This document shows, piece after piece, positions 21,444 through 26,309 of a DNA stretch of 64,000 nucleotides. The notes beneath the pieces are model-generated. The model searched no databases. It worked only from the letters and a program-made list of their open reading frames with translations, and was not told the DNA's origin. Made by a program: the position numbers and the translations under genes. The stretch lies in assembly GCF_017094505.1 (NCBI RefSeq), contig NZ_CP064787.1, positions 2,170,001-2,234,000 on the forward strand. The letters are read 5' to 3'. The DNA comes from Halapricum desulfuricans. Lineage in GTDB: Archaea; Halobacteriota; Halobacteria; Halobacteriales; Haloarculaceae. The stretch's first letter is position 1. Every line of letters starts with the position of its first letter.

Positions 21444-22040
21444 ATGGCCGACGAGCTGGACCGGGTGAGTCTGACGCTACCGCCGGAGATGACCGACCGT
21501 CTCGACGAGATCGTGCGCGACTGGGAGTATGCGAGCCGATCGGAAGCCGTGCGAGACGCGCTCCGGGACTTCTTTACGACTTACGACTGGGAGGCGGGCG
21601 ATCGAGGTCGCCACCACGGTACGATCGTCGTGGTCCACGAGCACGAACACGACAGCGATCTGCCGGGCCAGTTGCAGTCGATCCAGCACGACCACGCCGA
21701 CGTCGTCACGTCCGTCCAGCACATCCACCTCTCACACGACCGGTGTATGGAGACGCTCGTCGTCGACGGGACGGCCGGCGAAATCGACGCGCTGGCCAAC
21801 CAGATCCGTGCGCTCGGCGGCGTCCGACAGGTGAAGGTCGTGGTCGTCGGCGGTGCCGATCCCGGTCACGGCCACGAACACGGTCACGAGCACGGGTCGG
21901 TCCACGGCGACCACAGCCATCCCGGCGCCGACGGCCACAGCTATCCCGGCGACGACGGCCACAGCTATCCCGGCGACGACGGCCACGGCGATCACAGCCA
22001 GCCCGGTCACGACCACGACGCGGCTGCTGGCGACCAGTGA
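21444..22040 (+). CDS. nikR: NikR-family nickel-responsive regulator with His-rich tail
   Basis: 198 aa. Residues 1-45 are a ribbon-helix-helix (RVSLTLPPEMTDRLDEIVRD, SRSEAVRDALRDFF). Residues 60-137 are the ACT-like metal domain with nickel ligands H82 (QHDHAD), H93, H95 and C101 (VQHIHLSHDRC). NikR represses nickel uptake genes when Ni is bound. The remaining ~60 residues are unusual: 14 histidines with Gly/Asp and a perfectly duplicated 8-residue unit DGHSYPGD, encoded by two adjacent 24-bp repeats. The tail could store or sense metal. No nik transport genes are nearby. Convergent with rtcB. Confidence 0.88.
   Translation: MADELDRVSLTLPPEMTDRLDEIVRDWEYASRSEAVRDALRDFFTTYDWEAGDRGRHHGTIVVVHEHEHDSDLPGQLQSIQHDHADVVTSVQHIHLSHDRCMETLVVDGTAGEIDALANQIRALGGVRQVKVVVVGGADPGHGHEHGHEHGSVHGDHSHPGADGHSYPGDDGHSYPGDDGHGDHSQPGHDHDAAAGDQ
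21930..21977 (+). repeat. Tandem 24-bp repeat within nikR
   Basis: Two adjacent, identical 24-bp units (each starting GACGGCCACAGC) encode DGHSYPGD twice, and a third unit begins (GACGGCCAC). The identity at wobble positions points to recent slippage or duplication. Confidence 0.85.
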
Positions 22041-23663: not shown

Positions 23664-25427
23664 ATGGACGATACGAGCGACAGTCAAGATTCGTTCACGC
23701 GGCGACAGATAGCCGCAGGTGGGGCTGTCGGGCTGGCCGGACTCGCGGGTGGGTGTCTAGGCTCGATTCAGAACGTTCTCGGCCTCGCATCGGCAAGTCA
23801 AGTGTCCCTCCGGGTCGTCGCACCGCCAGTCGACTGGGATCGGCGGGCGAACGCGATTGCGGGGCGGCTCGTCAGTCGGCTCGAAGACGTGGGAATCGAC
23901 ACGCGGTTCCCCTTGCTCCCGCCGAAGCAGTTCCGCGAACAGGTCCTCTACCGGCGGGACTTCGACGTGTACGTCGGGACGATGCCCGTCGGACGGGACC
24001 CGGACTTCCTGCGGCCGCTCCTTCGCTCGACACACACCAACGACATCGGGTGGCAGAACCCCTTCGGGTTCACGGACAAGACGCTCGACGAGCGGTTCGG
24101 CGACCAGCGCAGACAGTCCGCGAGCCGGCGAACCGAGACGGTCCGCGATATTCTGCGGACGATCGCGAACGAACAGCCGTTCGTCCCGATCGCGACCGAC
24201 AGCGCGATCGCGGCCGTCAGATCGGACGTTGCCGACGCGTTCGACGGCTGGCAACGGGGCCCGCTCCGGGATCCGCTCTGGTTGCTCGGGATCGATCCGG
24301 TCGGAGGGGCTGAACCCCGACAGGCGCTTCGCGTGACGACGAAAAACGATCTACCGACCGAACAGTTGAACCCGCTCGTCCCCTGGATCAGCGAATTCGA
24401 TCCGACGACATCGCTTTTGTACGATCCGCTGGCTCGCCGGTACGACGGCGCGATCCGTCCCTGGCTGGCCCGCGAGTGGTCGACCGACGGGGACGAGCTG
24501 ACGGTCACCCTGCGGCCCGGTCTGCGCTGGCACGACGACGAACCGCTGACAGCTGAGGACGTCCGGTTCACCTACCGGTTCGTTTCGGACACGTCGCTCG
24601 GGTCTTCGGACGCCGACTATCCCGCACCTCGTTTCAGACGCCAGGCGAGTCTCGTCGACGAGGTCGATGTGCTCGGTCCACGCCGGGCCCGGATGCATAT
24701 CGATTCGTCCGCTGCAGTCGCACCGACGGCTCTCACGGTCCCGCTGTTGCCGAAACACGTCTGGGAATCGCGAACGGGCGTCACCGATACGCGTGCCGGA
24801 CTGACGCGAGCGGTCACACACGCCAATACGAACCCCGTTGGATCGGGGCCGCTGACACTCCGGAGTCAACAGCGGGAACGTTCGCTCCGATTCGGCCGGT
24901 TCGATCAGCATCCGATAAATCGCGACGACGGCTCCGAATTGGCGGATCGGTTCGGCCCGCTCGCGTTCTCCGAACTCGAGGTGCTGGTGACGCCGTCGGA
25001 CCTGAACATGGTCGAGTTCCTCGAGGCCGGAGAGGCCGACGTCACGGTGCCACACCTCGACAACGAACTCGTCTCTCGGATCGAATCCCAGGAGTCGCTG
25101 TCGCTGGCTACCAGTCCGTCCCGGACGCTGTACCACGTCGGTTTCAACGCACGCCGTCGGCCGCTCCATACGCCGGACTTCCGGCGCGCCGTCGCGCACC
25201 TGCTCAACAAGGCACACATCGCCGAAACGATATTCGGTGGCTACGCCCGGCCCCGAACGGTACCAGTACACGACGAGTCGTGGATCCCGGACGACCTCAA
25301 ATGGAACGGGGGCGACCCCGAAGTGCCGTTTGCGGGCGTCGAAGACGATCTCAACCACGAACGCGCTCGCGAACACTTCCGGTCGGCAGGGTACTCCTAC
25401 GCGGACGGCGGACAACTGGTGTATTGA
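23664..25427 (+). CDS. Circularly permuted peptide/oligosaccharide-type substrate-binding lipoprotein (SBP_bac_5)
   Basis: 587 aa. Tat signal TRRQIAAGG with lipobox LAGGC (C31). Residues 220-587 follow the first two thirds of family-5 binding proteins in order: LLYDPLARRY, PWLAREWSTDGDELTVTLRPG with LRWHDDEPLTAEDV, LPKHVWE, NPVGSGPLTL, VGFNARRRPLHTPDFRRAV, AREHFRSAGYSY. They stop exactly at DGGQLVY, where other members continue. That missing continuation (IAGRLVSRLEDVGIDT, FDVYVGTMPVGRDPDF, ILRTIANEQPFVPIA) lies at residues 47-200, before the rest. The protein is thus circularly permuted, not truncated. TATA TTTTATATA at 23594 supports the region; ATG 23637 is an alternative start. No permease or ATPase genes are adjacent. 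Confidence 0.85.
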   Translation: MDDTSDSQDSFTRRQIAAGGAVGLAGLAGGCLGSIQNVLGLASASQVSLRVVAPPVDWDRRANAIAGRLVSRLEDVGIDTRFPLLPPKQFREQVLYRRDFDVYVGTMPVGRDPDFLRPLLRSTHTNDIGWQNPFGFTDKTLDERFGDQRRQSASRRTETVRDILRTIANEQPFVPIATDSAIAAVRSDVADAFDGWQRGPLRDPLWLLGIDPVGGAEPRQALRVTTKNDLPTEQLNPLVPWISEFDPTTSLLYDPLARRYDGAIRPWLAREWSTDGDELTVTLRPGLRWHDDEPLTAEDVRFTYRFVSDTSLGSSDADYPAPRFRRQASLVDEVDVLGPRRARMHIDSSAAVAPTALTVPLLPKHVWESRTGVTDTRAGLTRAVTHANTNPVGSGPLTLRSQQRERSLRFGRFDQHPINRDDGSELADRFGPLAFSELEVLVTPSDLNMVEFLEAGEADVTVPHLDNELVSRIESQESLSLATSPSRTLYHVGFNARRRPLHTPDFRRAVAHLLNKAHIAETIFGGYARPRTVPVHDESWIPDDLKWNGGDPEVPFAGVEDDLNHERAREHFRSAGYSYADGGQLVY

Positions 25428-25454: not shown

Positions 25455-26309
25455 ATGGCATTGCTCGATGTCCTGTTGAGCGTGACAGCGGTGACGGCGA
25501 TACTGCTGGCGCTGTCTCTCCCCTCTGTCGTCGGTGCGGACCGTCTCCGCTCGATCTATCGGTACGGGATCAGAAAGCGCATCGCGGACGTACTCCCGTA
25601 CTTCGTCTTTCTGGGGATCGTGATCGGCGTCATGGGAACGCTTCGGAACCTCGGTGCCGATCTCTCGTGGGTCGTCGGCGTCGAAATCAGTTCCTACATT
25701 CTCGATTTCGAGGGCGGGACAGTCATCCGCTGGCTGCAGTCGTTCGAATCGCCGCTCGCGACGTCGTATTTCTCCGGCGTGTACATCTACGGGTACGTGT
25801 ACCTGCTGATTTTCCCGTTTCTCGCGTATCTCCTCGCTGACGATCTCCGGCCGTTTCGGACGCTGACGATAGCGTACGCGTTCAATTACGTCGTCGGTAT
25901 CCTGCTGTACGTGACGTTCATCGCGTACGGGCCGCGAAACTACCCCATCGGCGTCGAGCAGCTGCTGTACGACACCTGGCCACAGTCACAACTGCTCACC
26001 TCGGAGGTGAACGTCAACACGAACGTCTTCCCCTCGCTGCACTCGTCGGTCGCGACGACGATCGCGATCCTCGCAGTCAAGACCCGCGATCGCTATCCGC
26101 TGTGGACGCTGATCGCGGTTCCGCTCGCCGTCTCGGTCTGTCTCTCGACGATGTACCTCGCGATCCACTGGGCGACTGATGTCGTCGCCGGGATCGCGCT
26201 GGCGGTCGTCGCCGTCACGTTCGCCGAACGGTATCACGACCGGTTCACCGCGTTCATCGAGCGGGCCAGAGACCGCACGCGCGGCGCGTATCGGGATCTG
26301 CGGTCGTGA
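25455..26309 (+). CDS. PAP2-superfamily membrane phosphatase/transferase
   Basis: 284 aa with six or so membrane helices. NTNVFPSLHSSVATT carries the PSxH-type motif, and STMYLAIHWATDVVAGI carries the catalytic His and Asp of the third motif. The family dephosphorylates lipid phosphates or transfers headgroups (inositol-phosphorylceramide synthase-like members have the same layout). The Arg usually preceding the third motif is replaced (S-T-M), so activity should not be assumed. Only 27 bp after the binding protein on the same strand; co-transcription likely. Confidence 0.8.
   Translation: MALLDVLLSVTAVTAILLALSLPSVVGADRLRSIYRYGIRKRIADVLPYFVFLGIVIGVMGTLRNLGADLSWVVGVEISSYILDFEGGTVIRWLQSFESPLATSYFSGVYIYGYVYLLIFPFLAYLLADDLRPFRTLTIAYAFNYVVGILLYVTFIAYGPRNYPIGVEQLLYDTWPQSQLLTSEVNVNTNVFPSLHSSVATTIAILAVKTRDRYPLWTLIAVPLAVSVCLSTMYLAIHWATDVVAGIALAVVAVTFAERYHDRFTAFIERARDRTRGAYRDLRS

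Follow-up and report, generated by a model that had tools for sequence, protein, structure and literature searches.

The gene considered here lies on the forward strand of a 64,000-nucleotide stretch of the genome of Halapricum desulfuricans, an archaeon of the class Halobacteria. We refer to the whole of this stretch as 'the window'. The gene encodes a lipoprotein, P0001, that resembles the family-5 solute-binding proteins (SBPs), but with its conserved blocks in swapped order; we term the block that comes first in the chain the 'N-block', and the one that follows it the 'C-block'. The features of the locus, in window coordinates, are these:

23664..25427, + strand: circularly permuted family-5 (SBP_bac_5) binding lipoprotein, 587 aa (P0001)
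23664..23756, + strand: Tat signal peptide (R13 R14) and lipobox ending in Cys31
23802..24299, + strand: N-block, residues 47-212, homologous by profile matches to the C-terminal third of canonical family-5 SBPs
24300..24323, + strand: linker, residues 213-220, joining the ancestral C- and N-termini; 5-41 aa in relatives
24324..25424, + strand: C-block, residues 221-587, corresponding by homology to the N-terminal two thirds of the canonical family-5 proteins
25404..25424, + strand: new C-terminus, DGGQLVY, which is the break point, at PF00496 position ~285
25455..26309, + strand: PAP2_3 membrane enzyme, the conserved partner gene, 27 bases 3' of the SBP gene

Residues 1-31 form a Tat lipoprotein signal, as was predicted from the sequence at the outset, and neither the arginine pair (13-14) nor Cys31 varies among 28 homologues. 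The start of the lipoprotein is uncertain by nine residues, there being an in-frame ATG 27 bases upstream. Transporter genes are absent from the neighbourhood of P0001 and the PAP2 gene comes next, again as first described. Also in the window (21444-22040, + strand) is a gene for a NikR-type regulator with a long, repetitive, His/Gly/Asp-rich C-terminal tail, which possibly binds additional metal.

In its native order, P0001 matches the Pfam profile PF00496 (SBP_bac_5) over residues 264-584, corresponding to profile positions 2-285 of 368, with a score of 140.6 bits (cut-off 32.4). The C-terminus lacks the last 83 positions of the profile, and no annotation is given to residues 47-212. It is because of the permuted order that annotation pipelines report a truncated SBP and leave the N-block blank. 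When the blocks are rotated into the canonical order, coverage extends to positions 2-366 and the score becomes 150.2 bits. An alignment of 28 full-length homologues (A1) was split into N-block (A2) and C-block (A3) profiles, and these were searched against all PDB sequences. The two profiles match opposite ends of the same chains. A2 matches family-5 proteins at residues ~345-510 (5u4o, E 3.9e-7; 4qfk, 7.9e-7; AppA, 4.1e-6; DppA, 0.007), and A3 matches them at ~15-370 (5isu, 1.5e-31; DppA, 7e-19); in DppA, the profile matches place the break between about residues 339 and 345. The original prediction held that residues 47-200 were the family-5 C-terminal third, that residues 220-587 were the N-terminal two thirds and stopped at DGGQLVY, and that nothing was missing, only rotated. 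Each part of this stands: every one of the 28 homologues in the alignment terminates at the DGGQLVY point or only a few residues from it, and both blocks together cover the Pfam model once. The linker at the join of the old termini varies in length and composition across the same alignment. On the strength of sequence comparison, we consider it confirmed that P0001 is a circularly permuted family-5 SBP, its two blocks swapped. A changed order of lobe folding and a changed position of the lipid anchor, both anticipated, are predicted consequences that follow from this topology.

Could the N-block be some other domain that merely resembles the C-terminal third of an SBP? By itself it has no match in Pfam, and it is poorly modelled when folded alone (see below). 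We nevertheless judge this reading very improbable. Every PDB chain listed for A2 below E 0.1 is a family-5-type SBP matched at its C-terminal third, as are nearly all of the 47 chains listed up to E 10; a broader N-block profile, run against canonical archaeal SBPs, matches their C-terminal third at E-values as low as 1e-24; and in a single ORF from another archaeal family (G416, discussed later) Pfam itself finds the end of the PF00496 profile upstream of its beginning. The best 60 PDB chains include no family-5 structure collinear with P0001, that is, with the permuted order.

Structure prediction agrees with the sequence comparisons. For full-length P0001 with the 28-row alignment, AlphaFold2 returned a model with pLDDT 89.3 and pTM 0.87, in which confidence is low only in the signal and anchor (residues 1-41). 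For the N-block alone the figures were 63 and 0.51; this poor stand-alone model indicates that the N-block needs the C-block and is not a free-standing domain. Together with the PDB and archaeal profile matches, it rules out a foreign or free-standing N-block. In Foldseek searches of the PDB, the best 50 matches listed are all family-5-type SBPs, aligned over ~335-440 columns with TM scores of 0.33-0.46 over the query, the alignment being sequential. Matches of this length are expected from a sequential aligner if the C-block alone can be matched in order. From sequence and model together, we are confident that the permuted chain is predicted to form one bilobed SBP body.

Collinear homologues, spanning query residues 1-587 and free of internal stops, were found across the genus, the order and the Halobacteria. 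The GTDB-based collection holds 79 named loci, from Halapricum, Halorussus, Natrinema, Haladaptatus, Halorubrum and others, and at a threshold of 1e-20 the family profile matches 189 of 242 Halobacteria genomes, most of the matches listed being full length. Misassembly of one window alone is conceivable, but an explanation of the permutation as a genome error, or as a fusion of two unrelated genes, can be dismissed: dozens of independent genomes have the same order, both blocks belong to one fold and jointly cover its Pfam model once, and a recent natural example, described below, shows the same event at 85% identity.

The permuted order extends well beyond the close relatives of P0001. The N-block also comes first in each of twelve divergent paralogues from haloarchaea (L116-L127), which share 20-25% identity with P0001. 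Ten of these (L116-L118, L120-L125 and L127) adjoin genes for Dpp/Opp-type permeases (BPD_transp_1) or ATPases; L119 and L126 do not. Across eight haloarchaeal genomes, permuted profile coverage occurs in about 19-20 of 53 family-5 SBPs. A tblastn search of plasmids with L123 gave single-piece collinear matches in Nitratireductor, Roseomonas, Microvirga, Neorhizobium, Ketogulonicigenium and Maritalea. Profile matches bore out the permuted order at six of these plasmid loci, and the four annotated ones adjoin permease and ATPase genes. A restriction of the permutation to haloarchaea is ruled out by these alphaproteobacterial members and by the second archaeal family discussed next. Several individual members deserve mention. 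L173, L174, L177 and L178 are permuted family-5 SBPs on alphaproteobacterial plasmids, with permease and ATPase genes adjacent. M28 peptidase genes adjoin the permuted SBPs of Roseomonas and of Natrialba (L183), which suggests peptide uptake. And a 770-aa permuted SBP (L151:1486-3798, - strand) has a much longer spacer between its N-block (172-311) and its C-block (480-767).

In the C-block tree, the haloarchaeal and alphaproteobacterial permuted proteins, P0001 included, form one group (support 99/97; 100/97 for the haloarchaeal proteins alone). The PAP2-linked members are a sub-clade (100/99), distinct from the transporter-linked ones. The N-block tree, built on 170 columns, fails to unite the members of the main permuted group in a single clade, and its branches are weak. 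We treat this tree as low in signal, yet it weakens the claim of a single origin for the main group, which, the N-block tree being poorly resolved, rests on the C-block.

Elsewhere in the phylum, the matches listed span the C-block only, as canonical order predicts, with the exception of one family, f21. In G416, from this family, one ORF encodes a protein of 580-588 aa in which PF00496 positions 288-367 (E 1.7e-13) lie upstream of positions 1-288 (E 3.4e-81); the gene adjoins a DppBCDF-like cassette. L164-L166, of the same family, are likewise permuted, and the tree nests them within a tight canonical clade. Two genes from one non-halophilic archaeal genus, the break being as in the window, represent the two states:

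L164:1483-3054, + strand: permuted SBP
L168:1378-2931, + strand: canonical SBP

Residues 199-514 of L164 are 86% identical to residues 33-348 of L168, and residues 29-191 are 85% identical to residues 353-515; DNA identity is 78-79%. Dpp cassettes adjoin the L164 and L165 genes and are similar to that found alongside the canonical SBP in G416. Judged by sequence, the same break arose separately in this other archaeal family, and once recently, as the 85% identity of the swapped blocks indicates. A tandem duplication in which the two copies then lost opposite ends would be a plausible route. A single origin of all permuted forms is ruled out by the tree for L164-L166, and probably for L162. The latter (L162:6730-8472, - strand) is another permuted SBP; it is encoded alongside DppBCDF-like genes and has a hydrophobic anchor at its C-terminus instead of a lipobox.

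When the neighbours of the P0001 family were clustered over 80 loci, one proved near-constant: a PAP2_3 membrane protein, encoded downstream on the same strand. It lies directly 3' of the SBP in 78 of the 80 loci (73 by automatic count, and five more in which adjacency was masked by an over-extended start call), and where the locus is duplicated the order is SBP-PAP2-SBP-PAP2. The two genes also come and go together. Among 59 genomes, at thresholds of E<1e-50 for the SBP and E<1e-40 for PAP2, 32 contain both genes, 26 contain neither, one contains the SBP alone (a genome 76% complete) and none contains PAP2 alone (Fisher test 7e-16, not corrected for phylogeny). Genomes within genera g5 and g9, too, contrast with one another in this respect. 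G055 and G058, both among the 32, carry PAP2 at a site not adjacent to the SBP, so physical linkage is not obligatory. Genome G001 has two PAP2 homologues with identical scores (contig C1, 2025342-2026103 and 2254330-2255091), both away from any permuted SBP; these may be a recent duplication or mobile copies.

The PAP2 protein scores 54.9 bits against PF14378 (cut-off 27) and is above the cut-off for PF01569 too. Its catalytic residues R161, H196, H238 and D242 are conserved in 79-80 of the 80 sequences. A minority of loci contain further genes beside the pair. A ~545-aa membrane protein with PMT_2/PTPS-related (GT-C-like) matches occurs in about a dozen (in Halorussus, Halegenticoccus, Halogranum, Halorarius, Haladaptatus and Halolamina), and an arylsulfotransferase-like protein in eight, including some of the same loci. 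In 15 there is a membrane protein of ~430 aa and unknown family, mostly encoded just upstream of the SBP gene. One example of each is:

L089:5534-7168, - strand: GT-C/PMT_2-like protein
L073:6152-7576, - strand: arylsulfotransferase-like protein
L109:6561-7886, + strand: ~430-aa membrane protein

These extra neighbours point to modification of envelope lipids or glycans.

What, then, does P0001 do? Our preferred reading, to which we assign a probability of roughly 0.55, is that this permuted fold includes a PAP2-linked subfamily that is no longer engaged in ABC import, and that acts as the partner of the co-encoded PAP2_3 enzyme. P0001 would be exported in folded form by the Tat system and lipid-anchored at its new N-terminus. 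Its chain starts in the canonical C-terminal third, crosses the linker that joins the ancestral termini, and ends at the old junction. In the PAP2-linked haloarchaeal subfamily the SBP body, having left ABC import, would be held as a lipoprotein at the outer face of the membrane, perhaps in a physical complex with the PAP2_3 enzyme. There, it might take up the polar head group of a substrate, lipid-linked or soluble, or else control access, and the His/His/Asp centre of PAP2 would remove or transfer phosphate, the pair presumably serving the turnover of envelope lipids or glycans. We hypothesize that the shift of the anchor to the former C-terminal third matters for docking. The change of partner cannot be explained by permutation alone, given that some permuted relatives serve transporters.

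The principal alternative is that P0001 is an orphan transport SBP, supplying peptide or some other solute to an ABC transporter whose genes lie elsewhere in the genome, and that PAP2 is an unrelated passenger. Co-transfer could also produce gene pairing of the kind seen here. The genome contains four canonical family-5 SBPs, so transporters of the appropriate type are likely to be present, and the paralogues and alphaproteobacterial members found beside permease or ATPase genes establish a precedent for permuted SBPs in such company. Against this, no transporter gene occurs near P0001 or among the recurrent neighbours identified over the 80 loci, no other neighbour is nearly as conserved as PAP2, which is co-absent with the SBP as well as co-present, and the PAP2-linked group is one clade, apart from the transporter-linked ones. 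We regard this alternative as unlikely, though the most serious of those considered. Less likely again is a signalling role, in which the lipoprotein relays ligand occupancy to a transducer. Some haloarchaeal binding proteins do pass ligand occupancy to transducers in chemotaxis, orphan SBPs without transporters are often receptors, and lipid anchoring is compatible with such a function; but the conserved neighbours identified include no transducer or kinase gene, and the sole constant partner is an enzyme.

Partnership with PAP2 can be set in a broader proposal, which we advance tentatively and hold at somewhat less than an even chance. According to this, permutation at a fixed site would be recurrent in family-5 SBPs (at least three events, one of them recent), and one lineage would have been converted from an ABC-import subunit into a lipoprotein that senses ligand or presents substrate for a PAP2 lipid-phosphate enzyme acting outside the cytoplasm, an undescribed two-protein envelope system. 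The original prediction concerned a single gene. Beyond it, the permutation is a widespread class whose members also serve ABC transporters, the same break recurs independently, and PAP2 is a conserved partner.

We found no report of a permuted family-5 SBP in the literature searched, the coverage of which leaves out most subscription journals. The nearest precedent is TpMglB-2 (Tp0684) of Treponema pallidum, a 'Type Ic' SBP in which a natural circular permutation, found in many species, preserves the fold of a lipid-anchored protein (PMC4990184). Both proteins are natural permutations of lipid-anchored solute-binding proteins. TpMglB-2 belongs to the Type I/cluster B glucose-binding class, however, has a different break, and clusters with its own ABC transporter; all relatives detected for P0001 are family-5 proteins, and it is not a Type I/cluster B sugar-binding protein. 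Natural permutation of SBPs is rarely documented, TpMglB-2 being the sole case found in the literature searched, and here it characterizes a large class. With the L164/L168 pair, folding, export, anchoring and docking to the transporter can be compared directly before and after permutation, and the pairing with PAP2 provides a testable function for a lipoprotein of many haloarchaeal genera.

With the canonical proteins of PF00496 (DppA, OppA, AppA and NikA), P0001 shares the same two blocks, the same predicted bilobed body, export, and a profile score far above cut-off. It differs in the order of the blocks, swapped at profile position ~285, in an anchor on the former C-terminal third, and in having no adjacent transporter. 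Its partner shares the PSLH...H-x3-D motifs and six hydrophobic segments of the PAP2_3, PgpB and undecaprenyl-diphosphate phosphatase families, and differs from them in being gene-paired with a permuted SBP and in resembling named equivalogs weakly, far below their cut-offs. For the partnership itself, the closest parallels are mycobacterial. LpqZ and FecB, lipoproteins homologous to SBPs, bind the membrane arabinosyltransferases AftA and AftB, rather than transporters (PMC12802301), and LpqW (2grv) is matched by our N-block profile (9.1e-6) at its C-terminal third, as in the canonical order. Like P0001, these are SBP-fold lipoproteins without a transporter, and two of them, LpqZ and FecB, bind integral membrane enzymes of the envelope. 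They differ in being bacterial and in having glycosyltransferases, not PAP2 enzymes, as partners, and the link between P0001 and PAP2 is known from gene pairing. By analogy, we infer that P0001 may work with a lipid-phosphate enzyme rather than an ABC importer, much as LpqW, LpqZ and FecB serve the envelope enzymes of mycobacteria.
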